64,000 bases of DNA, from the NCBI GenBank assembly GCA_015179125.1, contig WHVA01000111.1, positions 62,001 to 126,000 of the forward strand. Reading direction: 5' to 3'. The notes beneath the pieces were generated by a model. The model did not search any database, had not been told where the DNA came from, and saw only the letters and a list, made by a program, of their open reading frames with translations. Of this stretch, positions 3,940-33,161 are shown in pieces. Made by a program: the position numbers and the translations under genes. The number at the start of each line of letters is the position of its first letter. Within the stretch, counting starts at the first letter, position 1. The DNA is from Gautieria morchelliformis (Eukaryota; Basidiomycota; Agaricomycetes; Gomphales; Gomphaceae).

Positions 3940-3944
3940 CTAGC

Positions 3945-4392
3945 TGTTAAGGTTGTGTTGTACTGTAGTTTGGCTATACCAAGCCGAACTCGGGTCTCGG
4001 GTCAGAGGGCTTGGCTTCAACCTCTTGGGTTGCGCCCACTCGATGTTCCACCCTAATTTCGGGAGCGGTCTCGGCTATAAGCCGAGATATGGGCTTCAAT
4101 ATCAAGCAGAGGGTCTCAAGTATGATAAGCTAATTCGATATCTGAACTGAGGAGCTACTGTACATGGACTGGAGGTCTATATAGTAAAGTAGCATGCAGG
4201 GTTGCGAAGAGAACATGATCGGATCAACGGTCAGGGGAACAAGGGTCAGGCAAATGGGGAACTAACTAGAAAAGGGAATCAGGGGTGATGGGAAGTGCAA
4301 AGGGAAACCCGAAGGAAGGCCGAGAGTAACCCGAGGTTCTGAACGAGAGCCGAAGCCGAGCTTCGGTCCGGATTCGGGAGCGGATCGTAGCA
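3945..4392 (-). repeat. 3' LTR of element A, with polypurine tract beside it
   Basis: This is the downstream LTR in element orientation. It aligns along its whole length with 13805-14245, and most differences are CpG against TpG or CpA. The adjoining 4393-4405 reads on the minus strand as an A/G-rich tract (AAGGGGGAGGTAC), the expected plus-strand primer. Near the element-5' end it contains an inverted repeat, CCGAAGC-N3-GCTTCGG, at 4350-4366. Confidence 0.92.
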
Positions 4393-4525
4393 GTACCTCC
4401 CCCTTATGGCCGAACCCATGAGGCCATAAGCGAGATCCCGGAGATCTCCGGGTCAGGGAAGTTACATAAGCTTTGTTTCACTTTCTGCTTCTTGTCTTCT
4501 CCCATCATCATCAAGTTCACGGATA

Positions 4526-5587
4526 ATGTCAGAAACACGTGAAATTCCCATTGATGAGGTCAACAAGGTCAAGGCTGAGCTCGCACAAGCTGAGCGCGAA
4601 GCTGAGGAGCAGATGAAGGTATTGCAGGAAAAACGATGGCTTGCGCAGGAGCGCAAGGAAGCTGCGGAGAAGAAGTGGTGGGAGGACGCCGAAAAAGCTG
4701 AGGTGGAATGGAAGGAGCAGGAGGTGCAGGCCGAAGCTGTGCAAATAGCCGAAGAGGCTTGGAAAGCCGAGGAAGCACGGGAGGCAGAAAAGTGGGCTTT
4801 GAAGGCGAAAGCCGATGAGGCCTGGAAGGCGAAGGGGCCGGCATTCGAACGTGAGCGAAAGTGACTTCTCACTTTATTGGAAGCTGAAACAATCTGACAA
4901 GCCAATATGGATCAAAACTACCACATCCCATCGCCCAAGCCAATTGTCGTGGATTTGGCAACCGCACAGGCTCGGATATTGGCCATGAAACATGTGGCCG
5001 AAAGAAATGCGGCTAAGGCAAAGCTGAAAGCCTCGGGGTCAAGGAAGAGAAAAATGACTGAGGAATCAGATGAAGAGGAGTCGGATGAAGAGGTGAGTAC
5101 TCGGGTCGGGTTGGTTCGGCTTAACTTACGTTTTTATTTTCACCGCGAACCTTGCGATGTGTGCAGGCATCGCCAGACCCGTTGTCTGCATGGGAGAAAA
5201 ACAGCCTGCCAGCAGTGCGTGGACCAGAAAGTACAGTGCAGTTTCCTGGATGGGAAATGGAAATGGAAGGATGAGGATGCGACTGAGGGTCCAGGGCTGA
5301 AGAAGGCCAAGATGTCTCCAGTCAAGCCGTCAGGAGCCCTACCGATGGTAGACATCTGTGCAGGGTCATCGGGAGTGGGAATAAAGGGTTTGAAACCCTA
5401 CTGGTTTTCGGGAGCGGAAGTCTCTCGAATGGTGAAGGGTTTGCTGTCTCGTCAAAACGAGCAGCTGGAGCAGAGCAACCATCTGCTCCAAGGTGTGTTG
5501 GATTTTGTGCAGCGGATCGAGCGGCACAATTCCAAGCTGAACAAGCGGCTCCACTTGTGGGCCACAGTGGCCGAGAATGCATCCTTA
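4526..5587 (+). pseudogene. Antisense accessory gene of element A: coiled coil plus Zn(II)2Cys6 cluster
   Basis: The frame opens with an ATG 134 bp inside the 3' LTR and runs antisense to gag-pol. Residues ~1-120 are an uninterrupted Glu/Lys/Ala-rich helix likely to form a coiled coil. Residues ~210-238 match the fungal binuclear cluster exactly, C-x2-C-x6-C-x7-C-x2-C-x6-C, followed by basic residues and a second heptad-like helix. That cluster is the DNA-binding domain of Gal4-family regulators. Two in-frame TGA codons (4862 and 4895) split the frame, both at likely CGA sites; the surrounding frame is otherwise open. Solo LTR-C interrupts the gene at 5588, and low-complexity basic sequence continues after 7391. 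A GTGAGT at 5093 could be a donor, but using the CAG at 5166 would remove two zinc ligands and shift the frame. Element B carries the counterpart. Function is inferred, not shown. Confidence 0.72.
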
Positions 5588-7391
5588 TGTCATGATGCGT
5601 TTATTTCCTATGCTCAGTAGCTCTGTCCTCCCCTTCATCACTCCACCTCTATGTTCGCTCTGATCACCCTTCGCCGAGTTCACTGAATGATTGAGGCTAC
5701 TCGCATCACTCGCCATGGCCACGCCATCAAAGCACGATCGACGTCCTTTGATTGGCTTGACAGTTCATCACTGGCCCTCTTACCTCCTCGGATCAACCCC
5801 CTTTGGATGTTCCCATGGCCGGATTGTCACGACCCGTGTATTTCTTGTACCCAGCTATCCCTGTTTTCCCTTTCGCCACTCCTCCCTTGCGTTCGCCCGG
5901 CTTCACCCTGCCATCTGACCACACCTCATCTATGATCGCTGCATTCACCCTTCACCACATTTGCTGAACGACCATTCGCTGCTCGCATCATTCGCCAGCA
6001 GGCACACCATCAAACACGATTGACATCCTCTACCCGGCATGATGGTTCATCACTGGCCCCATCATCTTCCCGATGCAACCCCTTTAGGTGTTCATATGGC
6101 CAGTGTGCATTCGCGGGACGCCCTAACTGTAGATCATGTGGGATCAACCCAGCAGACCAAGAGTCCATGCAGGGTAACATATATGCAGGTCTCAAGGCGT
6201 GTTTCCGTACATAGGTGCCTTCATCGTCTTTTCTCCCCGTCGTTTCACATTCACACTCCTCCTTGTTTCTATTGTATATGTGTTTCATCTTTCCTGTATC
6301 CTGACTGCACACCCCTATCCAACCCTGGCTCAAGACGGCGGCCTCTTCCCTTATGAGCATTCAGTATAACTAGTCTACATTTGCATGTATATTCCCCAGT
6401 TCAATTATCATACGTCCATCTTGTGCAAAACTTGACCTCACTGTGACCATCGTCTTGAGCCCTCTCCTATAGATTTCTATCTTCGACCAGAGGAAGACTT
6501 AAGTGTAGAGGACAGGAATTATAGGCAGTAGGTTCGGACTTGATACTCAAAAGAATGGACTAGAAATTAATTCACTCTCTCAGTGAATCTAGTTGTCACT
6601 TTAAATATATTATACACTACCTGGAAATTAATTCACTACAGGATTTCTAGGTCAACAAATCGAAGAGAAATAAGACTAATTTACTTGCCTCTCTCAGTGA
6701 ATCTAGTTGTCACTGAGAGAGGGGGGAAATGTGTCTCATGCGCATGTACTACTAGCCGGCGCTTTAGCGCCCGTGAGGCAATGGTGTGCCATGCTAAGCG
6801 CCCATAGAATGTAGCGTGTTGGTGAACAGCCACAGCTCAAAAAGGAAACTTGTCCACAACCACCCACAAAGGGTCGGTTGGACAGAACATGAAAAGAAGT
6901 AGAAATACAGCTTTGAAAAATCAAAGAAAAATTTGACAAATCATAGAATGAATGTCAGCATGGTTTCAAGTCAAAATCAAAAGAAATACGAATGGTGGAA
7001 TCTATTTGCCTTGATTTTGGTGCAGGAGCATAAATGCACCCAACATTAAGCACCACTGGTGAGTTTTCATACTTCACCTTCATTACCTTAGCCTTCGAAC
7101 TATTATCTGTGCTGTCGGCGAAGGGCTCTGAAGGAGCGCCTTCACGGGCGAAAGGATTGTTGCTACTTAAACAACCTTTCCATGACACCTTGCACGATAC
7201 ATCATCAAGTGCCACGGGCTATTTCGCTACGACTGTAGATAGGGCAAGCTTCGTTGGGGCAGCCCTCTTACCTTCTGAACATTTATTGGTTCACCTTGTT
7301 CGCCGAACAGCATATTTATTCGCACAAGTTATTCGGGCATTCCCTGTGTTCACTAATACACGATATTAACGTCTAAAAACCAATCTTGACA
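5588..7391. mobile_element. Solo LTR-C (long copy), target duplication CCTTA
   Basis: The insert begins TGTCATGA and ends CTTGACA, with CCTTA directly outside both ends (5583-5587 and 7392-7396). It aligns with a second copy at 21747-22775. This copy is longer for two reasons: an imperfect direct duplication of about 285 bp near its left end (compare ~5697 with ~5982), and a nested insertion at 6504-7045. No internal retrotransposon sequence is present, so it is a recombinant solo LTR. It interrupts the antisense zinc-cluster gene of element A. Confidence 0.85.
6504..7045. mobile_element. Solo LTR-E nested in LTR-C, target duplication TTAAG
   Basis: Relative to the other LTR-C copy, 542 bp are inserted here. 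The insert starts TGTAGAGG, ends CCCAACA and is flanked by TTAAG (6499-6503 and 7046-7050). TG...CA ends plus a 5-bp duplication indicate a solo LTR of another family. It holds an internally repeated motif (CTCTCAGTGAATCTAGTTG near 6581 and again near 6692). Confidence 0.75.
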
Positions 7392-7864
7392 CCTTATGAA
7401 CAGGAACGAGTTCGGATTGGGGCGGGTTCGATTTGGCTGGGGGTTCAGGTTTGGGTTCGGGGTGTGTGGAAAGGAAAAAGGGAGCGGAGGAAAAAGATAA
7501 GGGAAAAGAGAAAAAGGAAAAGCAGAAGCAGGATCAGGTTCGGATTCGGAAGACAGGGACAAGGAAGACAAGCAGAATGACAGGGGAAAGGATGCGGATG
7601 AGGAGGATGCAACTTTGGGAGATATCTAGACCACTGTTTTCAGTTTTCTATCCTAATGTGAATCTTTTTTCTTGGTGCTTTTTGTTTCAGAATTGGGATC
7701 GGGAATGGAAGTGTAATGGACACGCAGAGAAAGGAAGAGCCGAGAACTACAAGTGTAGCTATTCGGCAAAACGGCTGAGAATAAACATAGCAAAAGAGTG
7801 TTTTGTCTAACTAAGAAAGTGACCATCAAATGAGTGAAGGAAACGGGAGAGCCAAAGCTCAGGT

Positions 7865-9725
7865 TCAAGGAACCCATGGTCCAGGCTTGGCAGGGTAGGC
7901 CGAGTGAAAGTCGGTCACGATCTTGGCCACGTGGCCGAGCTCGGTCGCAAGGACCCATGACATCTCTTCATCGGTACCTTCATAACCAGCCCAACGGACA
8001 AGGTACAGGAGGTTACAGGGTCTACGGCGTCGGTCGATCTTGGAATCAAGAATCTCGGAAATCTCATACTCGATCTTGACTGGAGGCGGCGGAGACTGGA
8101 CCCAATTTGGGATTGTATTCAGAATTGCGGGTTCGAGCATGGAGACATGAAAGACCGGGTGGACTGCCTGAAGGTTATCTGGCAGGCATAGAATGTAAGC
8201 TCAGGATCCGGCCTGGGCAATAACCTCAAAGGGACCGAGGTACTTCTTGGCCAGCTTCTTCGAGGGCCGGGTTGTCCGGAAGAACTGCGCTTTTACAAAC
8301 ACCGAGGATCCTATCGCGAACTCGGGAGCGGGAGCGCAATGCACGTCGGCCGAGACCTGATACCAAGATTGAGTGGATTTAATTTGCTCTTTCAGGGCAG
8401 CGTGAAGCTGGTCAATGTCAACTGCGAAGTCTCGGGCTTGGGAGGATGCGAGGTCCTGTTCGGGGTGAACCGTGAGGTTCCGGTTGTATCCCTTGTTGGC
8501 AAAGAAAGGTGATATGCTGGTAGTTGCACTGGGAGCATTGTTGTACGCAAACTTGGTGAGTGGTAGCAACTTGGACCAATTGTCCTGCTGATAATTTGTT
8601 ACGTATTGAGATTTCCGCAAGTCGTAACTGGAAAGGACAACGGCTTCAACTTATATGTTGCGCCCCCAATAAACTATCATCCTAGGTATTTCGGAATGTG
8701 GGTCGGAAGTCGGAAAGTATTGAACTAAACAAAAGTCGGAACTTGAGTCGGAACTGAGTCGGAAGGCAGAAGGTGGAGAGACGGAGGTCTTGCTAAACTC
8801 GCTGTGCTAAGAACAGGAGATAGAGTGAAGGAAATCAAGTATTGAAGGTGATTATCTGATTGCAGAATAACAGACATACATGAGAGGCTTTTATACAAAG
8901 AGCTGAGACAACATGTAATGAGGTAGTACTAAGCAAATTCCGGAGAGAGCGGAAGTTGGATAGACATATGGGGTAATTAACTAATTGGGAACAAGGGGAC
9001 TACAAGGGGGGTTCAGGGTAAGGTAAAACAATGGCAAAAGAACAAGGGGTTGGGAAACATATCTGTCAATGAAACTACAAAGAGTACCAGACATATGGTC
9101 TTGCTGTACTGAGAGGCGAGTCCGGTGGGTCCGAGTATAGAGTCGAAAGAACAAGGGAATAAAACAAGGTGCAGAATATCGGAACTATTGGAAGGTCGGA
9201 ATGTGTGTGGAACTGAGTGTCAGAAATCGGAACTGCATGGTCGTAACATAATTGCAATACACACGGAGATACTGTTCCAGAGTTTGGTTGACACGTTCGG
9301 TTTGACCATTGCCTTCAGGATGATATCCCAAGGTGAAGTGCAGTTTCATGTCGAGAGCCTTGCCCAGGGAACAGAAAAAGTGCGAAACGAATTCCGAACC
9401 TCGGTCGGATGTCACATGGCTAGGGACACCATGCTTCGAGAAAACATGCAAGATGAACAGGCGGATGAGGTCTGCGGATGTGACTGTGTCGTAGGTCAGG
9501 ATGAATATGCTCTGTTTGGTTAGGCGGCAAACTACTACAAGGATTGCAGTGAATCCTGAAGATGCCAGCAACTGCTCAATGAAATCCATAGAGATGGAAT
9601 TCCAAGGTTGCTCGGGTATCGGAAGCTGTTTCAGGGAGCCGTAAGGCCGATGACACTGTGACTTTGAACGCAAGCAAGTAGTGCAGGACTTGCAAAAGTC
9701 AATGACAAAAGACCGAAGTGCGGGC
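7865..9725 (-). pseudogene. Element A integrase with C-terminal chromodomain (broken)
   Basis: In minus-strand order the sequence holds part of the HHCC zinc region (CKSCTTC), the DDE catalytic core (SMDF, TSDRGSEF and EGNGQTE supply the three acidic residues), a GPF/Y-like segment (YLGPFEVI) and a chromodomain (YEISEILDSK ... LVRWAGYEGTDEEMSW). The DDE core ends at ~9249, where solo LTR-B (8597-9248) intervenes. The C-terminal part resumes at ~8596. A TGA near 8201 follows AQAGS, where element B has Cys. The chromodomain would target new insertions to methylated-histone chromatin, which is the known chromovirus behaviour. Confidence 0.85.
8597..9248 (-). mobile_element. Solo LTR-B in element A integrase, target duplication TAATT
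   Basis: This 652-bp insert matches the LTRs of element B in reverse orientation. On the plus strand it begins TGTTACGTATTG and ends GGTCGTAACA, and TAATT flanks it on both sides (8592-8596 and 9249-9253). No internal sequence remains, so the provirus was lost by LTR-LTR recombination. It shows that family B was active after element A inserted. Confidence 0.93.
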
Positions 9726-9730
9726 CATGT

Positions 9731-9945
9731 TGTAAAGGATGTCAATCTTAAGACCTTGTATCACAAGGGCACTGCAGAACTTGACCAATGAGTGGTATTC
9801 TGAATGCTACGTAGTGACAGGTAAGAGTAAGATGCGATGGGAACCGCTGGCCGGTTCCCACGCATAAACTATACAGTGGGTCCCTAAGGGGCCCACTGGG
9901 ATTATGTAATAACTATTGTACATGTAGATACATAGGTTATTTACA
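9731..9945. mobile_element. Small solo LTR-D (215 bp), target duplication CATGT
   Basis: A 215-bp insert breaks the integrase zinc region between the counterparts of element B's RRTYT and WPLLR. It starts TGTAAAGG, ends TTTACA and is flanked by CATGT (9726-9730 and 9946-9950). Two strong palindromes lie inside (about 9837-9857 and 9875-9899). The 3' tail of the upstream reverse-transcriptase frame reads into this insert, so its last ~45 residues are not native. The short length would fit a copia-type LTR, but there is no internal sequence to confirm the family. Confidence 0.78.
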
Positions 9946-11645
9946 CATGTGTATTCCCGTCTGATGAGTTCTAAGGTCTTGTTTTGACTGAAATGTCCCA
10001 AGAGTACATGGTCGTGTTTGTACTGGAGTACTCGGAGCCGGAGGTCATCGGCATCGGGAACGTATATGCAGCCATCGAGGCGGAGGAAGCTGTCCTTGGT
10101 TTGCATCCATCTCGGGTCAGAACTATCACCGAGATGCTTAGCGGCTATGGGATTGGATGCCAGGTTAGCTAATATGTCGGCATGAAGCTTCTCGGAGCCC
10201 ATCACAATGCTTGCCCGGAGAACAGGTTCAAGCAGACAAGTTGCCCGGAGGGATTCTGACAATTGTTGATTAGTGAAAATTGGTCGGATGTTTTGTGGGT
10301 TGACTGAGCCGTAGTCATTACCTCCCTCTTTAAGGTAGATGTCCCATCGTCTAGTTAGAGCATTGGGTTTTGTACCGAGCTTTCTGTGACAGAACCGAAT
10401 GATGAGGTTAAATTGCAAGAGGAATTCGGACCTGCAGGCTTGTCGTTGGGTTAGCAACTTTGTGGTGGCAAAATACTCCAAGTTTTTGTGATCTGTGACA
10501 ACGTCAATGGGGGAGCCGGAGCCCTCCAGATAGTGTCTCCAACGTTGAAATGCTTCAAAAATTGCCAATAGCTCTTTATCATGGACATTGTAATTTGGTT
10601 TGGCACCGGAAAATGTTTGGGAATGGAAAGCGACTGGGTGCAGGACACCTTCTTCATCGAACAATGACAGGATTGCGCCAAGGGCATAGTCTGAGGCATC
10701 AGTTTCCACAACCATGGGTCGGTTGGGAACCCAATGCGACAGAATCGGAGCCGAAGTGAAAGCTTCTTTGAGGTAGTTGAAAGACTTTCGGCATTCTTCG
10801 GTAAACGCCCAAGGGGTGCCTTTATGGGTAAGCCGGGTTAGGGGGACCATGATGTCGGAATAGTTATAGATAAAGCGGCGGTAAAAATTGGTGAAGCCAA
10901 GGAAGGACTGTATGTCTTTTACCTTCCGAGGTTCGGGCCAATCATGGATTGTCTGGACTTTGTGTTCAGACATGGTAAAGCCTTTGGTCGACAGCATATA
11001 CCCTAGGAATTCCACAGAATCTTGGTGCCATTCGCATTTATCAGGTTTAGCATAGAGACCGTGTTTCCGAAGACGCTGCAATACTTCACGGACGTGTTCC
11101 CTGTGTTTGACCGGGTCATCGGAGTAGATGAGTATGTCGTCAAGGTACACGACGACGCATACATCAAGCATATCTCCAAATATGTCATTCATAAAACATT
11201 GAAAACCCGCGGGACCATTGGTTAAGCCGAAAGGCATGACTAGCCATTTGAAAGAGCTGTACCGGGTCCGAAATGCTGTTTTCCACTCATCGCCTTCGGC
11301 AACTCGGACGAGGTGGAATGCATGCTGAAGATCGATTTTGGTATAAATCCGAGCCTTCCGGGGTGCATCCAACAAGTTGGTAATTAACGGGAGTGGATAG
11401 TGGTCCTTCTTTGTAATCTTATTGAGTGCTCAGAAATCCATGCAGAGCCGAAGTTCGCCACTCTTCTTTTTGACAAAAAGGATGGGGGCTCCATGGGAGG
11501 ACCGAGGGCGCCGAATGTAACCCAAATTCAGGTGCTCATCAATGAAAGCTTGGAGCGTGGCAAGCTCCAAGGCAGAGAGCGATTATAATGGGGGTTGAGG
11601 AGGAGTAGCACCATCCTCTAGAGCAATCTTGAGATCGTAGGGTCA
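9946..11645 (-). pseudogene. Element A reverse transcriptase and RNase H (broken)
   Basis: The frame gives the Ty3-type reverse transcriptase: VKKKSGELRLCMDF, then KIDLQHAFHLVR, MPFGLTNGP and the active-site box VVYLDDILIYS. RNase H follows with TDASDYALGAIL, the conserved Glu in NYNVHDKELLAI and DVVTDHKNLEYF. The N-terminal half is separated by a TGA at 11430-11432, directly after the conserved DF, where Arg is expected (element B reads DFRGLN). Another stop sits upstream near 11587 (TAA at a Tyr position). The 5' boundary is the TGA at 11643, which lies at the same residue as a TGA in element B. Confidence 0.88.
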
Positions 11646-12265
11646 GTGGGGAGCCAAGGCGTCACCCTTGGATTTGCTAAAGACATCCGCGAAGTCATGA
11701 TGCTCCTTCGGAACATCCTTAAGATCCACCGGATCGGGTTGCACAGGGGCCAAAGGGGCCGAAGCCGTGGGTTCGGGTTGCGCCAGGTTTAGCTGGAAAC
11801 ATTGGGAACCCTCTAGTTTGCAGGCACAGTAAAATGCTGCTGCATTCAGGAGAGCCACCCGGGGAGCTTCCAAGCTCGGGTTTGGCTCAGTCTCAGCCAT
11901 AGAGGTGGGAGCAGCCGAAGCCGGCAGGTTGTCCACAGGACTTCCCGGGAGGGTAGTTCAGAACATAATACTGCCCAATACCCAGTCAATCAACGGATTG
12001 TAGCGGGTGAGCCGTTGTGTCCGAGAACTACCGAAACAGACGAATCAAGGGGGGTGACATAAAAGTCTACCGAATGGGTGTGACCATTGGGGAAATGGAT
12101 AGGTAGTTCTACAGCTTCAGTAATTACCGAATTTGTACTACCATCAAACAAACGGAGCGGGATCGGGTCTACGGATTGGGTTTTGAGACTATTTCTACTT
12201 ACAAAAACAGATTCAATGAAACAATGAGTAGAGCTGGAATCTACTAGGTGATTTAAACTTTTGGT
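11646..12265 (-). pseudogene. Element A aspartic protease region (degenerate)
   Basis: The minus-strand translation gives LVDSSSTHCFIES, equivalent to IDSGSTHCFLDS of element B, followed by VTPLDSSVSVVLGHN, the flap/C-terminal protease motif. The catalytic triplet reads Asp-Ser-Ser instead of Asp-Ser-Gly, so the enzyme would probably be inactive. Frame breaks lie between the protease motif and the downstream linker (11643-11936), which ends ALAPH and then TGA. The linker matches the same region of element B (LEAPRVAL against LEAPRIAL). Confidence 0.7.
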
Positions 12266-12403
12266 TGGGGAGCAGAGACAAGGATAAACTAACTACAAGA
12301 GAATTCAGGGAACAGAGAGCAGAAGCATTGATTCTTACCTCCCCCAATGCGCAAGCCGTGTCAACGCGACCCTCGGTATGTGTGGAGGCCATAGGGCCGC
12401 TGA

Positions 12404-13780
12404 CTATTTTTTTGTGCCCGAAGCCAAGCTATCGGCTTTATCATCGGATGTCTTCCCATCAGAAGCCATGGCTGCCTGGGCCGTCATGGCTCTCGGACAA
12501 TCCTTCGCATGGTGTCCACTCTGCGCACAGACTAAGCAGAGGTTGTTATCCATGCGACGCTGGCGTTCTGCGGGCGTGAGTTTGCCGTCCTTGCCAAGTC
12601 TGTCAGGTTCGGGTTTTTTCTGACCCTCAGACTGATTATTCCCTTTCAGCTTGTCCTTGCCTTTGCCTTGGTTATTACCGACATTAGCGTTGGAGTTGCC
12701 GGAACCTTGACCTTGACGTCGGTCGTTGTTCTGGGAGCCTCGGTTTTGGTTGGCCGACTTGTCGTTCTTGGCCTCGGGTTTGGGAGCAGAATGAGTCTCA
12801 CAAGAGAGTTCACTGCGACGTTCCCAATACCTCTGGTCGAGTTTCTGAAGGAGGTCTCGGAGGTCATCAAGGGTTTGGAGTTTGTCGAAATGCACCATTT
12901 CGTCCTTGATTCACTTCAGCAAGGCCAAATAGGCTCGGCGATGCAAAGCCAAATCATTATACTGGAGGATGGATGCAAGCCTGTAGAATTCAACGAAAAA
13001 CCGAGTTGCCTTGTGGTTATCCTTCATGACCAAAGTCTCGAGCTCAATTTCGGCGTCCGCAACTTGATCATAAGGACTGAAATTCAGATAGAGCTCTTCT
13101 GTGAATGCCATGTAATCCGAAGCCCATGTGGGTTCGTCGGCAGGGTCATCTGCAAGGTAGGGCTCAAAATAATCCAGAGCTGTTCCCTTGAGGGAGGACA
13201 ATACATAGTTCACTTTCGTGGAACCATCTCGGAATGCTTGGGGTTTGGCACGGAAATTCAGCGTGCACTGGAGAAGAAATCCTCAGAGCTTTTTCAGGTC
13301 CGAGCCATCAAACTGGTCAGGTTCCCGGAGTTTCGCTTTCGAGTCACTTCGGTCTCCACCACCACCAAGCCCATTGTCGGCGAGCCTTTCCAAAGCCGTG
13401 AGCAGTTGCCCAACCTGTTCCTCGCTGCTTGCCGCTGCATTCGGGCTGGGGTTAGGTCTCAGGCCTGCTACTTCAGGATCAGAATTATGCTCAGAACCGG
13501 AGTTGGGATCATCCCCACCACCATCACCATCGCCAGGATCGCTCGGATCGGGGGGTTCAGTGCTCGGTTCCTCGGGAACTTCACTGACACACCCTTGGCC
13601 AGCACCAATAACTTGGCACCGGGGTGCGGGTTGAACTGACGGGGGGTTGTAATACCGGTGACGGAACGGGGGGTTTTCTGGGACGCTCGAAGCACCTCGT
13701 GCACGCCGAGCTTCGATTGTCCGCGTTATGCAGCTGCCTTTGGCACAGGTGTAAGATCGGGTGATTGGCATTCTGAACAA
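12404..13780 (-). pseudogene. Element A gag with CCHC zinc knuckle (three pieces)
   Basis: Three same-strand frames form one gag. First comes an acidic/proline-rich N-terminus ending KLREPDQFDGSDLKKL. The capsid-like core follows (MNYVLSSLKGTALDYFEPYL), then a Q/N/K-rich linker with the zinc knuckle C-x2-C-x4-H-x4-C (CLVCAQSGHHAKDC). The breaks are TGA codons at 13283-13285 and 12911-12913, each at a position where CGA/Arg restores sense (KKL-R-GF, LLK-R-IKDE). A GDGDGGGDD-type low-complexity stretch lies in the N-terminal part. Confidence 0.85.
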
Positions 13781-13792
13781 AGAGTGTAGGGA

Positions 13793-14245
13793 GTTCAGAT
13801 ATACTGTTAAGGTTGTGTTGTACTGTAGTTCAGCTATACCAAGCCGAACTCGGGTCTCAGGTCGGAGGGCTTGGCTTCAACCTCTTGGGTTGTGCCCACT
13901 CGATGTTCTGCCCTAATTTTGGGAGCGGTCTCAGCTATAAGCCAAGATACGGGTTTCAATATCAAGCAGAGGGTCTCAAGTACGATAAGCTAATTCGATA
14001 TCTGAACTGAGGAGCTACTGTACATGGACTGGAGGTCTATATAGCAAAGTAGCGTGCAGGGTCGCGAAGAGAACATGATCAGATCAACGGTCAGGGGAAC
14101 AAGGGTCAGGCAAACGGGGACCTAACTAGAAAAGGGAATCAGGGGTGATGGGAAGTGCGAAGGGAAACCTGAAGGAAAGTGGAGAGAGGTTCCGAATGAG
14201 AGCCGAAGCTGAGCTTCGGTCCAGATCCGGGAATGGATCGTAACA
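13793..14245 (-). promoter_or_regulatory. 5' LTR of element A with TATA box, predicted start site and self-complementary primer-binding site
   Basis: The LTR is 13805-14245. On the minus strand a TATATAG box lies at 14043-14037. Thirty-five nt downstream, starting at 14008, is AGTTCAGATAT. Just inside the LTR, after a 2-nt GT spacer (13804-13803), the primer-binding site reads ATATCTGAACT (13802-13792), the exact reverse complement over 11 nt. The distance from TATA places the transcript 5' end at or near AGTTCAGATAT. The RNA could therefore fold back and prime itself, as known for Tf1/sushi elements. No tRNA match was recognised. Confidence 0.8.
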
Positions 14246-14250
14246 CTAGC

Positions 14251-14546: not shown

Positions 14547-14878
14547 ATGCTGCCGAGCGTCAACCCCCAGGTGCCTGCCAGATCACAAGCTCGCACAAGA
14601 GCGGGCGCCATGCAGCAGACCAGCAGCAGAACCAGAGCTGATTTGTTGCTAGAGCCAAACATGTCAGTGCAAACGAGGGAGCAAGCCAGGCACTTCCTCG
14701 ACAGACAAGGCTACTATGCAAAAGACGACCCGCTGTCAGAGGAACAGCTGAGCTACGCACTACTATCGCTCACACACAATGTCAGTGGGAAGACCCTGCA
14801 GGAGGGAATAAGAGCGGTTGCCATACTAATGCTGGAAGAAGCGGCGAGGGTAGTGGGAGCGACAGTAATGCGACATGT
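14547..14878 (+). pseudogene. LINE ORF1, N-terminal piece
   Basis: The frame starts with ATG and encodes a hydrophilic N-terminal segment (EQLSYALLSLTH, IRAVAILMLEEAA) without a recognised domain. It is cut at 14878 by solo LTR-B, whose CATGT target duplication is 14874-14878 and 19707-19711. Across the junction the following piece is in a different frame, so a one-base loss near 19715 is likely. Assignment to the LINE rests on the downstream continuity and strand. Confidence 0.65.
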
Positions 14879-24517: not shown

Positions 24518-25188
24518 TGTTACAACCGTACATTTCCGACTTCCGACCCTCAGTTCCGCAACACTTTCTGCCCCTCCGATATTTCCGACATCCCACCCCT
24601 TGTTCTACTCCCTTGTTCTTTCGACTCTATTACTCTGACCCACCGGACCCGCTTCATCATTCATCAAGATCACATATCCGGTCCACCTTGTAGTTCGTTG
24701 TCAGATATGTTTTCTGACCCCTTGTTCTTTGCCATTGTTTTACCTTACCCTGAACCCCCCTTGTAGTCCCATTGTTCCCAATTAGTTAGTTCCCACGTCT
24801 GTCTACCCGACTTCCGCTCCCCCCGGAATTTGCTTAGTACCATCTCATTACATGTTGTCTCAGCTCTTTGTATAAAAGCCTCCCATGTATGTATGTTATT
24901 CTGCAATCAGATAATCGCCTTCGATACTTGATTTCCTTCACTCCATCTCCTGTTCTTAGCACAGCGAGTCTAGCAAGATCTCCGCCTTCCGCCTTCCACC
25001 TTCCGCCTCCCGCCTCAGTTCCGACTCAAGTTCCAACCAACCTTTAGTTCAGTACTTTCCGACTTCCGACTCATTTCCGAAATACTTAGGACAATAGTTC
25101 ATTGGGGGTGCAACCTACAAGTTGAAGCCGCTGTCCTTTCCAGTTCTGACTTAGCGGAAATCTCAATACATAACAGTATTATCTGATT
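24518..25188 (+). promoter_or_regulatory. 5' LTR of element B with TATA box, predicted start and self-complementary primer-binding site
   Basis: TATAAAAG at 24871 is followed 34 nt later by AATCAGATAAT (24905-24915). Two bases (GT) beyond the LTR end at 25175, the primer-binding site ATTATCTGATT (25178-25188) is its exact 11-nt reverse complement. This predicts Tf1-like self-priming. The LTR is unusually rich in CCG triplets in the TTCCG context, especially 24980-25080 and the first 60 bp. Confidence 0.82.
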
Positions 25189-25208
25189 CCCACCCGATAA
25201 CTATCGCT

Positions 25209-26608
25209 ATGCCTCCATGTACCACAGCTACTTCAGCTCGAGCAGGAGCTGTCGAAGCTCTCTCTTATTTTGGCAGTCTTAGATCCGCAGCACCAAGGCA
25301 CACGGAACCCTCCAGCAGCTCTCGTGCAGACGATGAGCTTTCCGACGCTATTCTGCAATGCTTCGAAGAAGTTCCTGACGCTAATCCCGATGACAATCCC
25401 GACTACGACGGAAACTTGTCAAGTAGCAGCGGCGAGCAAACAGCAGCGTCATTGCGACGCCCAGCTCCACCACCACCACCTCCACCAGGACCTCCAGGTG
25501 GCCCTCATGGTGGTCCCCCAGGCAGTCCTCCCGGTGGTCCTCCACCTCCAATTCCCACCAACCCAGTTCCGCCTGCGCCAGTTCCAGATCTTGCACAAGC
25601 TATCGCCATGCTAGCCGGTCAACTCCAGCATCCGGCCCAAGCCCCACCACGCCCAAGACAAAAGTCCGTGAACCGGATCAATTCAACGGTTCCGACCCCA
25701 AGAAGCTCCAGCCTTTTTTGGTCCAGCTTCAACTCAACTTCCGCGATCGTCCCGACGCCTTTCCCCATGACAAACGAAAGGTCAATTACGCCCTTTCCTA
25801 TCTCCGAGGCACGGCTCTCAACTATTTCGAACCCGCCCTCATGGATCCGTTCGCACTCGTCGACTGGGCTGACGATTACCACAAGTTCGTTTCTGAACTC
25901 CGCAACAACTTCGGACCATTTGATATGGAAACCGATGTGGAAAATGAACTCGACAAGCTTCATATGAAAGACACTCATAAGATAGCTAAAAACATCGTCA
26001 CTTTCCAGCAGCTGGCTCCTCGAGTCCAATGGGGAGAAGCTGCACTCCAACGTCAATTCTACATGGGCTTGCCATCCCGGATCAAGGATGAAATTGCCCA
26101 CGTCGGAAAACCCACCACTCTTACTGACCTCCGCAACCTTGCCCAATCCATCAATTCGCGCTACTGGGAAAGACATTCCGAGATCGCTCGCGAAACTTCC
26201 GCCCAGAGCAAGAACGACAAGCCCTCCAACAAGAAGTCTGATAAAGACAAGAAGAAGACCAATTCCAGAAACAACAACTCCGGAAACAACAACAACAACA
26301 ACAGTTCCGGGTCCAACTCCAGCAACCGAAACAACACCACACCATGCAACAACCAGGCCTCTGGTTCCAACACCAATGCCTGGAAGAGCACTCCGGACCT
26401 TTCCGACAAACTTGGGAAAGACGGAAAACTAACCCCTGCAGAACGCCAGCATTGCATGGACAACAACCTTTGCCTTTTCTGCGGCAAAGGCGGTCACGTC
26501 GCTCGCGATTGCACCCGAGCTTCCACTTCCGCTGCCAAGGCCAAGGGCCGTGCAGCGAAGACGGAAGAGAAATCCGAAGCGGCCCCTGCTACGGATGCAA
26601 AAACATAG
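25209..26608 (+). pseudogene. Element B gag with CCHC zinc knuckle (one frameshift)
   Basis: The ATG lies 20 bases after the primer-binding site. The first frame gives a Pro/Gly-rich N-terminus. At ~25660 the reading must shift by one base to reach KVREPDQFNGSD, which matches element A gag, then SYLRGTALNYFEPALMDP, an Asn/Lys/Ser-rich linker and the knuckle CLFCGKGGHVARDC. The frame stops with TAG at 26606. Protease lies in another frame that overlaps the end of gag from ~26344, so a programmed shift or the native gag stop could separate gag and pol. Confidence 0.85.
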
Positions 26609-27393
26609 TCAGCAGTCCTCCGGCCTCCGCACGAGCTGAGGGCTGTGTTGACCCCATTCGTGCGACAAACGAGGTTAAACTCAACGCATCCGCTCTTTCA
26701 TCCTCCGACTCCCTCTCAGTTCCACTGACTTCCGACACAATTTCCGCACCCCCGTTTACAGCATTGATCGACTCTGGTTCGACTCATTGTTTCCTCGATT
26801 CCGACTTTGTTTTGAAACATAAACTTCCGACCTGCAACATTCCGACAATTCCGCTCCACCTTTTCGACGGGTCATCCAACATGGCAATTTCCCAAGTCGT
26901 GGACCTGTCTATCCGTTTCGCTACTGGGGACAACCATGAGGTTACGCTTTACGTTACTCCGCTAGATGCTAGCTGTTCCATTGTACTAGGACACAATTGG
27001 CTCACCCGATATAATCCGTCGATTAACTGGGCATTGGGTCAGATACAGTTCCGTACCCCGGATCAACTTCCGTCTATTCTGACGTCGTCCGCGAAGATGG
27101 GTCAGGCCTCTTCTGCAACTCCGCTAGTGGATTCAGTTCCGCACTCTGGTCCCACTTTAGCACCTCCGCCCCTCGAAGCTCCCCGAATTGCGCTCGTTTC
27201 TGCCACCGCTTTCTGCATATTGCAACAGCAAGAAGATACGACCGTTTTCCAGCTTCACCTTTCCGATTCGGCTTCAGTCAAGGCTCATTCCGCCTCAATT
27301 TCCGCTCCGGTCGACATGAGCTCAGCTCTGGAAGAATATCGTGACTTCCCGGACGTGTTCAATAAGGCCAAAGCCGATAAACCCGCTGAACAT
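26609..27393 (+). CDS. Element B aspartic protease region
   Basis: The frame contains ALIDSGSTHCFLDS, with the catalytic Asp-Ser-Gly, followed by VTPLDASCSIVLGHNWL and a linker to the reverse transcriptase (LEAPRIALVSATAF). It is open from ~26344 to a TGA at 27394-27396. In a functional pol the frame should continue PYDLKI without a stop. The catalytic triplet is intact here, unlike element A. Confidence 0.8.
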
Positions 27394-27396
27394 TGA

Positions 27397-29683
27397 CCTT
27401 ATGATTTGAAGATATATTTGGAAGAAGGAGCATCTCCGCCCCTTGGACCGATCTACTCCCTCTCGCAAAGTGAACTCCAGACTCTCCGAGAGTTCGTCAA
27501 TGAACACCTGAACATGGGCTTCATCCGCCCTTCGCTGTCTCCGCACGGCGCTCTGGTCCTTTTCGTCAAGAAGAAGGATGGATCTCTCCGCCTCTGCGTC
27601 GATTTCCGCGGACTCAACGCCCTCACTAAGAAGGACAAATATCTGCTTCCGCACATTTCCGACCTCCTCAACACTCCCCGCAGAGCGAAGATCTACACCA
27701 AAATCGACCTATGGCATGCTTATCACCTTGTCCGCATCGCGAAGGTGACGAATGGAAAACCATTTTCCGCACCCGCTACGGTGCTTTTGAGTGGGTTGTC
27801 ATGCCTTTTGGTCTAACCAATGCTCCCGCCACTTTCCAGCAATTTATGAATGACGTATTTTCCAACCTCCTCGACGTATGCGTTCTAGTCTACATTGACG
27901 ACATCCTCATCTATTCCAACACACCGGAAGAACATCGGGAACATGTCCGCGAAGTACTCCGCCGTCTACGCAAACACCACCTCTATGCAACAGCAGAGAA
28001 ATGCGAATGGCATCGCAACACGGTCGAATACCTCGGCTACATCCTCTCTCCTACGGGTCTTACCATGGCAGAGGACAAAGTCAAGGCAATTCAAGAATGG
28101 CCGGAACCCCGACGTGTTAAGGATGTGCAGTCTTTCCTTGGCTTCGCCAACTTTTACCGGCATTTCATTTACAATTTTTCCGACATTACTGTTCCGCTCA
28201 CGTGTCTCACCAGGAAGGGTGCCCCATGGAATTTCACCCCGGAATGCCATTCCACATTTGAAGCCCTCAAAGTGGCCTTCACTACGGCTCCTATACTCAG
28301 TTTCTGGATTCCTGATGCTGTTACGTATCGAGATTTCCACTAAGTCGGAACTGGAAAGGACAGCGGCTTCAACTTATAGGTTGCGCCCCCAATGAACTAT
28401 CGTCCTAGGTACTTCGGAAATGAGCCGGAAGTCGGAAAGTACTGGACCAGAGGTTTGGTCGGAACTTGAGTCGGAACTGAGGCGGAAGGCGGAAGACGGA
28501 AGACGGAAGGCTGAGAGAGAGACTGAGATCTTGCTAGACTCGCTGTGCTAAGAACAGGAGATGGAGCGAAGGAAATCAAGTATCGAAGGTGATTATCTGA
28601 TTGCAGAATTACAGACATACATGAGGGGGGTTTTATACAAAGCGCAGAGCAACAAGTAATGGTGTTGTACTAAGCAAATTCCGGAGGAAGCGGAAGTCGA
28701 GTACAATGTGTGGGAACTAACTAATTGGGAACAATGGGACTACAAGGGGGGTTCAGGGTAAGGTAGAACAATGGCAAAGAACAAGGGGTCGGGAAAACAT
28801 ATCTGACAACGAACTACAAGGGTGACCGGATATATGGTTTTGATGGATGGCGAGGTGGGTCCGGTGGGTCCGAGTAATAGCGTCGAAAGAACAAGGGAAA
28901 TGTACAAGGGGCGGAATGTCGTGCGGAACTATTGGAGGGGCGGAAGGAGTGGCGGAACTGAGGGTCGGAAGTCGGAAATGAACGGTCGTAACAGATGCCC
29001 AATTTGTACTCGAAACCGACGCTTCCGACTACGCGCTAGCCGCCATCCTTTCAATCATTTCCCCTGACGACGGAGAAATTCATCCGATCGCTTTTCATTC
29101 CCGCACCTTTTCTGCCCCGGAACTCAACTACAACGTCCACGATAAGGAACTACTTGCGATCTTCGAAGCCTTCAAAATCTGGAGACACTACCTCGAAGGT
29201 CCAACTTATCCGATCGACGTTGTAACGGATCATAAAAACCTTGAGTATTTTGCGACTACTAAGATTTTGACTCGCCGTCAAGTCCACTGGTCTGAATATC
29301 TCTCACAGTTCAATATGGTGATCCGCTTCCGCCCCAGAAAGCTCAGAGCAATACCCGACACACTCACTAGACGTTGGGACATCTACCCAAAAGAGGGAAG
29401 TAGCGACTATGCCAGCGTTAATCCGCATAATTTCCACCCAGTATTCTCCACTGAGCAACCGGCATCGTCCCTGCGTGCCACAGCATTGCAGTTTCCGCTA
29501 CTCCGCACCTCAATCATTATGGACACCGAGTCTCTCCATTCCGGCATCTGTTCCGCACTTCATTCCGATCCCATCTCCGCAACCCACCTCGATGACCCAA
29601 CCAGTCCTGGATGGTCCCCCGATTCCAACGGATTTCTCCAGTACAAGTCCCGGATTTACGTTCCGGATACAAACGATCTATGA
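27397..29683 (+). pseudogene. Element B reverse transcriptase and RNase H (split by a solo LTR)
   Basis: The sequence begins after the TGA with PYDLKIYLEEGASPPLGPIY. It holds LRLCVDFRGLN, KIDLWHAYHLV, then a one-base loss near 27740, REGDEWKTIFRTRY, MPFGLTNAP and the active site VYIDDILIYS. Solo LTR-B (28319-28993) interrupts after FWIPDA. RNase H resumes at ~28999 with VLETDASDYALAAIL, NYNVHDKELLAI and DVVTDHKNLEYF. The region ends YVPDTNDL and TGA (29681-29683); element A reads DDLRLRVL there, so this is another CGA to TGA. Confidence 0.9.
28319..28993 (-). mobile_element. Solo LTR-B inside element B, target duplication GATGC
   Basis: A 675-bp reverse LTR-B (TGTTACGTATCG ... GGTCGTAACA) is flanked by GATGC (28314-28318 and 28994-28998). 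It belongs to the same family as its host element, so the family jumped into its own copy and then collapsed to a solo LTR. Confidence 0.95.
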
Positions 29684-30991
29684 CTTTGCATGCTCCAGCA
29701 AAGCCACAATCACCCGCTCTCAGGACACCAAGGCCAAAACAAGACCCTCGACATAATCCGACGTACATACACTTGGCCTCTTCTCCGCACAATGGTCCAA
29801 GACTATTGCAAGTCATGCACCACCTGTATGCACGCCAAGCCCCAACGTCACAAACCCTACGGCCTCCTGAAGCAACTTCCGATCCCAGAACAACCGTGGA
29901 ATTCGATATCTATGGATTTCATTGAGAAACTTCCTAAGTCATCCGGCTATGATACCATTCTAGTTATCGTTGACCGCCTCACCAAGCAGTCCATCTTTAT
30001 TCCAACCTATGACACCATCACTTCCGCACAGCTCGCACAACTCTTCGTGCTCCACGTCTTTTCCAAGCACGGAATCCCTTCCCATGTCACTTCCGACCAT
30101 GGATCAGAATTCGTGTCATCCTTTTTCCGCACACTCAGCAAGGCTCTCGACATGAAACTCCACTTCACCTCCGGTTATCATCCCGAAGGAGACGGACAAA
30201 CGGAACATACTAATCAGACCCTTGAGCAGTATCTCCGCGTCTATTGCAACTACCAACACAGCAATTGGTCCGACCTTCATCCACTTGCGGAATTTGCTTA
30301 CAACAATGCGCCTTCCACTACCACCGGAATTTCACCCTTTTACACCAACAAGGGCTACCACCCGAATCTCGCCATCCACCCTGAACGCGACCTCGCCTCT
30401 GCCAGAGCCCAAGATTTCGTTGTGGAACTCGACGACCTTCACCAGCACCTCCGAGAGAACATTTCCGCTGCCCAAAAGAGATACCAAACTTCCGCCGATC
30501 GGAAACGACTTCCGCAACCAGCATTCGAGATAGGCGACAAAGTCTTTGTCAAAGCTGAAAACTTCCGCACCACTCGTCCCTCGAAGAAGCTCTCTGAAAA
30601 ATACCTTGGCCCTTACGAGATCATCGCTAAGGCCGGCAGTTGTTCTTTCACTCTCAGACTTCCTGACAATATGTGTGCAGTACACCCGGTATTCCACGCC
30701 TCCATGCTTGAGCCCGCAGTTCCAAATACAATTCCGAATCGAGAACAACCTCCGCCTCCACCAGTGATCATCGACGGAGAACCGGAATATGAGATCTCGG
30801 AAATTCTCAACTCCAAGCTCGACAGACGATACCGCTGCCAACTCCAGTACCTAGTCAAGTGGGCAGGCTATGAAAACACCGACGAAGAGACTTCCTGGAT
30901 TTCCGCCACGGAACTAGATCATGCCTCTGACCTCGTCTCTGATTTTCACAAGTCATATCCTAATAATCCTGGCCCCATTTCTGCGCTCTAG
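29684..30991 (+). CDS. Element B integrase with C-terminal chromodomain
   Basis: The frame runs 433 codons without interruption. It has an HHCC zinc module (HNHPLSGHQG ... CKSCTTC), the DDE core (SMDFIEKL, TSDHGSEF, EGDGQTEH), a GPF/Y-like segment (YLGPYEIIAKAG) and a chromodomain (YEISEILNSK ... YLVKWAGYENTDEETSW). This integrase inserts the cDNA, and the chromodomain usually directs it to heterochromatin. It is the best-preserved protein of element B. It is expressed only as part of a Gag-Pol polyprotein, so there is no start codon of its own. Confidence 0.9.
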   Translation, partial: LCMLQQSHNHPLSGHQGQNKTLDIIRRTYTWPLLRTMVQDYCKSCTTCMHAKPQRHKPYGLLKQLPIPEQPWNSISMDFIEKLPKSSGYDTILVIVDRLTKQSIFIPTYDTITSAQLAQLFVLHVFSKHGIPSHVTSDHGSEFVSSFFRTLSKALDMKLHFTSGYHPEGDGQTEHTNQTLEQYLRVYCNYQHSNWSDLHPLAEFAYNNAPSTTTGISPFYTNKGYHPNLAIHPERDLASARAQDFVVELDDLHQHLRENISAAQKRYQTSADRKRLPQPAFEIGDKVFVKAENFRTTRPSKKLSEKYLGPYEIIAKAGSCSFTLRLPDNMCAVHPVFHASMLEPAVPNTIPNREQPPPPPVIIDGEPEYEISEILNSKLDRRYRCQLQYLVKWAGYENTDEETSWISATELDHASDLVSDFHKSYPNNPGPISAL

Positions 30992-31279
30992 TCAATTCCG
31001 ATCCCATTTCCAATACCCCATTGATTCTTACAGTTCTCAAATCATATGTCAAATCCGATTAATTTTCCATTACGCTATTTTCCGACACTTCAAGAAATTA
31101 TTTACAAGTATCTTCGACACCTACTCCTCCCTCATCGTTTCCCCCTCGCCCTCGTTCTCCCCTTCCGGACCTTCTTCCGCATGTCCTATCTCCACGTTCA
31201 CCAACACGGTCCCCACCCTGTCCCTCGTTTCCACCCTTTGGCTCGGACCCGCCTCCGCCCCACTCTCCTGCTCCCGCGT

Positions 31280-32387
31280 TCACGACTCCATTCGGTCCCG
31301 GACCAAATCATTCCGCCATCGGAACTCCCGGTTCACCTGTTCCAAGACCGTCGACATGACGGTCATCTGGTTTTGGAAAGACAGCACTTGATGTTGCTGA
31401 ATTTCTGCCATTTCCAGCAGAATATTCCAGATTCCGCGTTGCATTTTCCACATACCCCTCAGCGACCCGGCGATATCGAGTAAAGGAGAGGCCATGGTGA
31501 AGTGGTTTAGGACCGCTGCCTCTGAGTTTCCAGCCACCGGAAACCCTTCCGTGGACTTTCCTCCATGCGGTCCCGGTTTTGACTTAGGGGTTTCAGGCCC
31601 CTTGGTCTCGACCTTGCACCTTTTTCGCTCCACCCTCACGGCACACCCGTCCACGACGCAGCGCCTTTTCTTGTCCCAGCACCGGTTGCAGGCTGTTTCC
31701 TGCGGATTTTCGGACCACATGCAGTCCAAGCCTTTGACCTCGCATGTGTCGCATGGAGCCTTCTCCTCCTCGCCGTCCCTTGTTTTCCGTTTCCTCGTCG
31801 TGGGATTTTCCGGTCCCAATTCCCGTAACTCCTGCATCCGGGCCAGCTTGCCCTTCCTGGCCTGTTGAAATTCATCCGCCCTCCATTTTTGTTCCACAAC
31901 CACGTTGAGCACAGGGGCGACTTCCTTCTGTTTCCCCTTGCCCTCTGGAGACGGCGTGCTTTCCGCCGTGCTTTCCAATTCCAAGTCATCCTCGGACTCG
32001 ATGATCCTCTGGCAGGCTTTTCCGTGAACATCGGAAATTCTTCACATAATATCTCCAACTCACCCGTTGTTTCCCCACCCTTTCCGCCATGGCCTTGTCC
32101 TCCGCAGCTTTTTTGGCCACGTCCCGTTTCCGCTGTTCCTCGTGGAGACGCGACTCCTCCTCGTGGCATTTACGGCCTTTCTCCTCCTTCTCCTTCCACT
32201 CCTGGTCCCGACGCTCCTGTTCTTTGCGTTCCTTCTCCCTGCACTCCTCCTCCAGTCGTTCTTTTTCCTTCCGCGCGGCTTCCTCAGCCTCATGTTTTTC
32301 CGTCAATTCCTTTTGCACGAGGATGTCAGCAAAATGCTGTTTCATCTCGGCACTGGTCATTTTGGAGAAATCGACTTGAGAGCTCAT
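31280..32387 (-). CDS. Antisense accessory gene of element B: coiled coil plus Zn(II)2Cys6 cluster, one intron
   Basis: Exon 1 (32387-32064) starts MSSQVDFSKMTSAEMKQ and encodes a long Glu/Lys/Arg coiled coil. A 55-nt intron (32063-32009) has GTGAGT and CAG borders. Exon 2 (32008-31280) continues in frame (RIIESEDDLELES...) and holds the canonical cluster C-x2-C-x6-C-x10-C-x2-C-x6-C at residues ~194-226, a basic patch (RVERKRCK) and a C-terminal heptad-like helix (LLEMAEIQQHQVLSFQNQM). The ~350-residue protein is complete with no stop. It lies antisense between the chromodomain end and the 3' LTR, starting about 122 bp from that LTR. The LTR edge may thus serve as its promoter. A DNA-binding regulator is inferred from the zinc cluster; no function is demonstrated. 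Confidence 0.8.
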
Positions 32388-32490
32388 GTTGGATTAGGAC
32401 AAAGATGTGTTTTGCTTCCCACCTATCTTTCGAACTCCGACGCATTTGGTCACAGGTCACGTGATCCGACTTGTGGTCTCGCGGGGCTCG

Positions 32491-33161
32491 ACCTTAGAAG
32501 GGAGATACTGTTACAACCGTACATTTCCGACTTCTGACCCTCAGTTCCGCAACACTTTCCACCCCTCCGATATTTCCGACATCCCGCCCCTTGTTCTACT
32601 CCCTTGTTCTTTCAACTCTATTACTCGGACCCACCGGACCCGCTTCATTGTTCATCAAGATCACATATCCGACCCTCCTTGTGTTTCGTTGTCAGATATG
32701 TTTTCCCGACCCCTTGTTCTTTGCCATTGTTCTACCTTACCCTGAACCCCCCTTGTAGTCCCATTGTTCCCAATAGTTAGTTCCCATGCATTGTTTACTC
32801 GACTTCCGCTTCCCCCGGAATTTTGCTTAGTACCATCTCATTACATGTTGTCTCAGCTCTTTGTATAAAAGCCTCCCATGTATGTATGTTATTCTGCAAT
32901 CAGATAATCGCCTTCGATACTTGATTTCCTTCGCTCCATCTCCTGTTCTTAGCACAGCGAGTCTAGCAAGATCTCCACCTTCCGCCTTCCGCCTCCCGCC
33001 TCAGTTCCGACTCAAGTTCCAACCAACCTTTAGTTCAGTACTTTCCGACTTCCGACTCATTTCCAAAATACTTAGGACGATAGTTCATTGGGGGCACAAC
33101 CTACAAGTTGAAGCCGCTGTCCTTTCCAGTTCCGACTTAGCGGAAATCTCGATACGTAACA
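32491..33161 (+). repeat. 3' LTR of element B with polypurine tract
   Basis: The LTR is 32509-33161. The tract TTAGAAGGGAGATAC directly precedes it and parallels the tract of element A (both end in TAC before the LTR TG). Compared with the 5' LTR, four of five differences in the first ~120 bp are CG against TG or CA. Confidence 0.93.

Follow-up and report, generated by a model that had tools for sequence, protein, structure and literature searches.

Antisense zinc-cluster genes in two chromovirus families of Gautieria morchelliformis and the CGG words that their products may read

The 64,000-nucleotide stretch of the Gautieria morchelliformis genome analyzed here (hereafter the window) contains, at positions 4526..5587, an open frame on the strand opposite to that of an LTR retrotransposon. 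This raised the question of whether the frame represents a gene of the element and, if so, what its product could do. The original prediction was that two families of Ty3/gypsy elements, represented in the window by elements A and B, carry at the same place and in the same antisense orientation a gene for a Zn2Cys6 protein.

Structure of the two elements and of their antisense genes

Element A lies on the minus strand (3945..14245) and was delimited by LTR self-BLAST, by its ends and by Pfam matches to reverse transcriptase, RNase H and integrase. It carries nested insertions, is flanked by CTAGC target duplications (3940-3944 and 14246-14250), and its 3' LTR (3945..4392, minus strand; LTR self-BLAST, ends) and 5' LTR (13805-14245, minus strand) are 91.7% identical by self-BLAST. 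The C-terminal, chromodomain part of its integrase is broken (7861..8590, minus strand) and shares 62-67% identity with the same part of B copies, this identity being the sole ground for placing A among the chromoviruses. Element B (24518..33161, plus strand; Pfam, self-BLAST) is flanked by AATGG target duplications. A solo LTR from the same family (28315-28994) splits its reverse transcriptase region, its integrase frame, with SH3 and chromodomain (29690..30991, plus strand; Pfam), is open, and its 3' LTR (32509..33161, plus strand) holds 12 TTCCG/CGGAA words counted over 657 bp. The combination that defines chromoviruses, a Ty3/gypsy pol with an integrase chromodomain, was found by Pfam in element B and in a third family, C, described below.

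The surroundings of the two elements are rich in other insertions. LTRs of family B without an internal part occur at 8590-9255 (in A), 14875-15490 and 28315-28994 (in B), with 5-bp duplications visible around those at 8590 (TAATT) and 28315 (GATGC). Another repeat is present in two copies (5825-7391 and 21747-22775) that are 75-87% identical, the first sitting in element A just past the antisense gene and the second adjoining a transposase with a sub-threshold DDE_Tnp_4 match (20737-21939). The window also contains a short interstitial telomere-like run of CCCTAA repeats at about 1074-1090 and a chitin synthase gene at 55883-58198.

The antisense gene of A starts on the plus strand at 4526, 133 bp inward of the 3' LTR, and heads toward the integrase. 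It comprises exon 1 (4526..5092, plus strand), which encodes a charged helix and an acidic stretch, an intron (5093..5143, plus strand), both defined from an alignment of 14 of the 30 A loci, and exon 2 (5144..5620, plus strand), which encodes the zinc cluster, a linker and a C-terminal helix and whose homology to the other copies ends near 5585. The intron donor is present in 14/14 aligned copies and the acceptor in 13/14, the exception being the window copy, which is decayed compared with the 13 others: it has lost the acceptor, and its exon 1 is interrupted by two in-frame stops. Several further copies of the alignment have frame breaks or stops. The frame 4526..5587, as originally read, partly crosses the intron, and its six cysteines are exonic.

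In B, the antisense gene occupies the minus strand, starts 121 bp inward of the 3' LTR and likewise heads toward the integrase. Exon 1 (32064..32387, minus strand, ATG at 32387) is followed by an intron (32009..32063, minus strand) and exon 2 (31280..32008, minus strand), and with the predicted splicing the window copy has an open frame of 350 aa. Among the eight of 11 B loci that were aligned, the ATG is present and exon gaps are mostly multiples of three; the intron has a GTGAGT donor and an AG acceptor in 8/8 copies, around a body that differs from copy to copy in sequence and length. Retrotransposition leaves such an antisense intron in place, since the genomic RNA comes from the other strand, and the conservation of its ends points, indirectly, to the existence of an antisense transcript. 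In the interval separating the antisense start codon from the 3' LTR, a ATCACGTGAC stretch is conserved in the window (32388-32508) and in other B copies, with an E-box-like CACGTG in 7/8 aligned copies, and is a possible promoter element of such a transcript.

Copy number, coding constraint and encoded protein

A first look at the genome returned 446 candidates for the A gene and 671 for the B gene, with at least 153 and at least 150 matches, respectively, among the best-scoring; the match is free of stops in 130 of the best 150 B places. Around the best 30 A-like places (window copy included), an integrase on the opposite strand lies downstream in 26/30 and an A LTR upstream in 21/30, one or the other being present in 29/30 and neither at L017. 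The 11 distinct B-like loci examined all have both integrase and LTR. The predicted position between integrase and 3' LTR is therefore that found in both families, and it corresponds to the placement of an aORF-3R, between pol and 3' LTR and antisense to gag-pol. Such locus counts are not independent, because the copies are related; five B loci (L035, L036, L038, L039 and L059) carry one antisense type (dS <=0.03), so that the 11 B loci represent about seven types.

Coding constraint was assessed with our own Nei-Gojobori script, excluding pairs with dS <=0.1 or >=1.5. In B, median dN/dS was 0.12 for exon 2 (41/55 pairs usable), 0.27 for exon 1 (37/55) and 0.14 for the integrase (40/55). The corresponding values in A were 0.20 for exon 2 (375/435 pairs, individual ones reaching 0.80), 0.25 for exon 1 (184/435) and 0.37 for the integrase (261/435). 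Duplicate loci were removed beforehand (L037 duplicates L059, and L005 is contained in L060), which shifts the medians by at most 0.01; L015 and L028, whose genes are identical (dS 0) on different contigs and which are perhaps one place assembled twice, were both kept. The Pfam zinc-cluster model found 17 Zn_clus loci in the genome, none of which matches the antisense proteins, the integrases or the LTRs of A and B, so that no host-gene homologue was seen among these loci.

Long-term retention, the second part of that prediction, is strongly supported by the dN/dS comparison over copies that it had proposed, with low values in both families, by the conserved splice sites of the antisense intron and by the large share of stop-free matches among the best-scoring B places. 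Copy number, intron conservation and dN/dS make the gene more than a chance frame, and we consider its existence, strand, splicing and coding constraint to be well supported by these comparisons, with very little room for doubt.

Zn2Cys6 clusters have the cysteine spacing C-x2-C-x6-C-x(5-12)-C-x2-C-x(6-8)-C, and those of both families satisfy it. The cluster of A (5153..5239, plus strand), seen directly in the sequence, has the pattern C-x2-C-x6-C-x7-C-x2-C-x6-C as predicted and matches PF00172 with 18.0 bits; that of B (31658..31753, minus strand) reads C-x2-C-x6-C-x10-C-x2-C-x6-C and matches weakly (13.4 bits for the window copy), both scores being below the curated cut-off of 21 bits. Weak Zn_clus matches at E up to 1 were obtained for 9/9 B rows (8 loci) and 4/5 A rows, and a profile comparison of A with B aligned 36 zinc-cluster columns (hhalign probability 93.5). 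The same domain order had been proposed for B, which holds for the cluster and the arrangement, the spacing being x10 rather than the x7 of A.

A long coiled coil had also been expected ahead of the cluster. This N-terminal part is instead a highly charged helix (48-56% DEKR) in which hydrophobics are scarce at heptad positions a and d. In the helix after the cluster, 59-65% of the a/d positions are hydrophobic in the most favorable register, so dimerization is more likely there, and the C-terminal helix appears to be the better coiled-coil candidate. In Gal4-type proteins a Zn2Cys6 cluster is followed by a linker and then a helix; the same order in the antisense protein makes the proposed Gal4-type regulator plausible. 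A PDB sequence search with the antisense protein gave no match, single-sequence AlphaFold2 modelling of window B exon 2 gave a poor model (cluster pLDDT <40), and Pfam scans of the exons gave weak Zn_clus matches, along with a handful of weak ones to other families, and no bZIP.

The antisense gene can be much older than the rest of the element that carries it. The B copies L058 and L059 share 96-100% identity across about 3 kb of pol, 97-98% in the 3' LTR and 86-95% in most of the region of the 5' LTR and gag, compared with 69-83% between the end of the integrase and the 3' LTR; their dS is 0.077 in the integrase and 1.45 in antisense exon 2. This contrast goes beyond a uniform mutation rate, and cassettes of different age therefore seem to have been joined to related backbones, like phage immunity regions. 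Antisense dS exceeds integrase dS in 46/55 B pairs, the nine exceptions all falling within one antisense type, and in 258/261 A pairs.

Family-specific CGG words

Zn2Cys6 proteins typically read CGG triplets. Relative to dinucleotide expectation, the top 5-mer is CGGAA/TTCCG in 11/11 distinct B loci. Pooled counts of CGGAA were 876 against 171 expected in B (17.7/kb), 497 against 97 in family C (11.5/kb), 202 against 175 in A (2.6/kb), 91 against 101 in the 17 host zinc-cluster loci (1.7/kb) and 38 against 56 in the rest of the window (1.1/kb). Family A is enriched instead for CCGAA (423 against 175 expected) and CCGAG (412 against 162), that is, for YTCGG on the other strand, in a pool that leaves out L001, L017 and L024, with window pieces standing in for L001; the top word of individual decayed A loci is often another one. 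The enrichment follows the element: at L059, CGGAA occurs once in 1960 bp of flank and then 6-13 times per 500 bp across the element, and B LTRs hold 12-19 sites each.

The words also fill coding sequence. Synonymous shuffles that preserve protein and codon usage were applied to stretches of >=300 bp, a limit that admitted 20/29 A and 10/11 B loci for the integrase; as these are related copies, they do not count as independent trials. The A integrase has 148 YTCGG against 77.9 in the shuffles (sd 6.9; 20/20 loci above their own mean) and no excess of CGGAA (19 against 23.4), whereas the B integrase has 199 CGGAA against 58.6 (sd 6.3; 10/10 loci) and no excess of YTCGG (82 against 85.7). The antisense genes follow their families, with 165 YTCGG against 97.0 in A exon 2 (up in 27/29 loci) and 138 CGGAA against 73.4 in B exon 2 (up in 11/11). 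The integrase of family C has 230 CGGAA against 90.5 (sd 7.6; 19/19 loci) and a weaker excess of YTCGG (180 against 136.7, sd 8.7), and a single C pol frame of 4.3 kb has 33 TTCCG against 10.5 and 43 CGGAA against 10.4. Two LINE frames in the window showed no word excess. Composition or codon usage as the cause of the words is rejected on the basis of the dinucleotide expectation and of the shuffles.

Among B copies, CGGAA is retained at 0.63, compared with a mean of 0.46 for CpG 5-mers (rank 2/87; 28 pairs). Within the B antisense gene alone the figures, which count the duplicate L037/L059 as two, are 0.52 and 0.38 (rank 11/105). The eight gene copies have 46 CGGAA sites, of which one is found in all eight and 12 in a single copy, with 14-24 sites per copy; individual sites thus turn over at a maintained density. 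When the sense strands of L058 and L059 are counted together, the B word is biased (233 TTCCG, 62 CGGAA), and the bias is unclear in A (152 vs 185) and C (39 vs 54). An RNA signal is an unlikely cause, as A and C have no clear strand bias, though B has one. A fixed dimer spacing is not apparent, the modest excess at 12 bp being unconvincing. At L061, an A-like antisense match of 35-39% identity, CTCGG and TCGGG are preferred over TTCGG, which may be a case of the word shifting along with the protein.

Family C was recognized from 19 of 20 loci cut around the best SH3_Tf2-1 matches (L063-L081), with a further pol frame at L060:4620-9999. Its integrase is about 40% identical to that of B, and its sequence is filled with CGGAA/TTCCG words of either orientation, above synonymous expectation. 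With tblastn, neither exon of A or B had a match within 1.5 kb on each side of SH3 in 19/19 C loci, nor was there an antisense-gene match beside the C pol frame of L060. A text pattern for the zinc cluster was negative in the C loci; it is a weak pattern, matching just 2/5 A-type loci. For family C the 5' part was covered in part, through L060, and the 3' end was inspected by eye. A strict link between word and gene is rejected, C being rich in CGGAA with no antisense-gene match in 19/19 loci: either C uses the B protein in trans, or CGGAA is selected for another reason. Beside the C copies L069 and L070, the words CAGCG and GGTAC are in strong local excess, perhaps because of a tandem array.

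Possible roles of the antisense protein

The best single explanation of the sequence data, although it falls somewhat short of being probable, is an antisense protein that reads the CGG word of its own family. The gene would be transcribed inward, from beside or within the 3' LTR, and spliced once. The product would be a nuclear protein in which a charged N-terminal helix and a basic stretch precede the Zn2Cys6 cluster, with a linker and a probably dimerizing C-terminal helix after it, and it would bind the word filling the DNA of its family, YTCGG in A and CGGAA in B. Once bound, it would mark or coat the chromosomal DNA or the cDNA of the element, most likely countering silencing or activating transcription, as VANC does for VANDAL. 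Anti-silencing is the most likely use of word reading, a proposal that we nonetheless regard as doubtful. Old cassettes on young backbones could reflect selection for different protein types, and, speculatively too, family C would borrow the B protein in trans. Observations that stand against this explanation include the abundance of the word in C, where no gene was detected, together with the weaker YTCGG excess of that family, the strand bias in B, the lack of a convincing dimer spacing, the lower retention rank of CGGAA within the antisense gene alone and the Pfam scores under cut-off. In a broader and tentative form of this explanation, each family would have its own address system, with LTRs and synonymous positions rewritten to place a word every 50-100 bp, C free-riding on B, and cassettes exchanged like phage immunity modules. 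Such a system would let the DNA of a family be distinguished from host DNA from end to end, in the service of anti-silencing, cDNA handling or insertion control.

The antisense protein could instead be a classical local regulator acting at the LTR promoter, as an activator or as a repressor in copy-number control, the saturation with words having another cause. The order of zinc cluster, linker and helix fits such a role, as do the word-rich B LTRs and the old cassette types on young backbones, which recall immunity modules, and a regulatory role is supposed for other antisense genes in the accessible text on them (PMC7264820, PMC11963269). We consider this unlikely, as it leaves unexplained both the filling of coding sequence through synonymous choices and the difference between the A and B words. 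Rather unlikely, too, is that CGGAA saturation comes from a host factor or from an integrase or gag function, the zinc-cluster protein being a coincidence. Saturation of family C, where no such gene was found, and the orientation bias of the B word would suit this reading. It is hard to reconcile with the background word level of host loci and with the integrases, since those of A and B are about 60-70% identical and their words differ, whereas those of B and C are about 40% identical and share a word. That the antisense transcript acts as RNA (dsRNA, silencing, self-limitation) with the protein incidental, as the accessible text proposes for antisense transcripts in plants (PMC7264820), is very improbable in view of the low dN/dS, of exon indels that are mostly codon-sized and of the persistence of a zinc cluster in two diverged families. 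Capture of a host transcription-factor gene by a single copy or a handful of copies, or an open frame arising by chance, had in its favor that the first sighting was in one decayed copy, and is rejected as scarcely credible given the copy number (446 and 671 first-look candidates, at least 153 and at least 150 matches), the conserved place and strand, the dN/dS values and the lack of a host homologue among the 17 Zn_clus loci.

HBZ of the retrovirus HTLV-1 is a bZIP protein and nuclear regulator whose antisense gene is driven from the 3' LTR side. The A and B genes, originally compared with it, share its position and strand but encode a zinc cluster, with no bZIP in the Pfam scans, and the analogy is limited to position and strand because HBZ is a bZIP protein. 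Plant LTR retrotransposons such as Grande, RIRE2, Retand (with TRP28) and PvRetro13 have antisense genes at the same place (PMC7264820, PMC11963269, PMC8365987), whose function is described as unknown in the accessible text (PMC7264820, PMC11963269). These resemble the A and B genes in place, antisense strand and supposed nuclear or DNA-binding role (PMC7264820, PMC11963269). According to the same text, they are found in most copies (the A and B genes have hundreds of candidate copies, with coding constraint among the loci compared), they encode TRP28 or SMC rather than Zn2Cys6, and Retand is called a non-chromovirus lineage, unlike A and B; an element-wide, family-specific motif is not mentioned there.

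The original prediction knew of no such gene in fungal Ty3/gypsy elements. For antisense genes as such this does not stand: the accessible text attributes to Zhao et al. 2011 the antisense gene brtn of Boty from Botrytis cinerea (PMC7264820, PMC8365987), which likewise lies between pol and 3' LTR of a fungal Ty3/gypsy element. For the zinc cluster it may: that text does not mention one for brtn, whereas A and B have it, and among titles and abstract openings, with few subscription journals, no Zn2Cys6 antisense retrotransposon gene was found described.

The closest parallel to a protein reading its family's word comes from Arabidopsis VANDAL DNA transposons, whose VANC proteins bind motifs amassed in the non-coding tandem repeats of their own family (PMC5735166). 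In the accessible text, as in A and B, a protein encoded by the element is paired with a short motif multiplied in its own family, related families having different motifs; the enrichment is likewise family-specific here, except that B shares its word with family C. VANDAL elements are DNA transposons and A and B LTR retrotransposons, and the proteins are unrelated by domain content. VANC motifs are described as confined to non-coding tandem repeats, whereas the words of A and B are also found in coding sequence, above synonymous expectation.

For the reading of family words by the antisense protein, the Zn2Cys6 identity gives a concrete DNA-binding prediction, with two proteins and two words. 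If the words are binding sites, a retrotransposon would have shaped its whole coding sequence for self-recognition. If true, this would parallel the anti-silencing systems of plants as a separately arisen case, and it might help to explain the multiplication of these elements in a fungal genome of 122 Mb.
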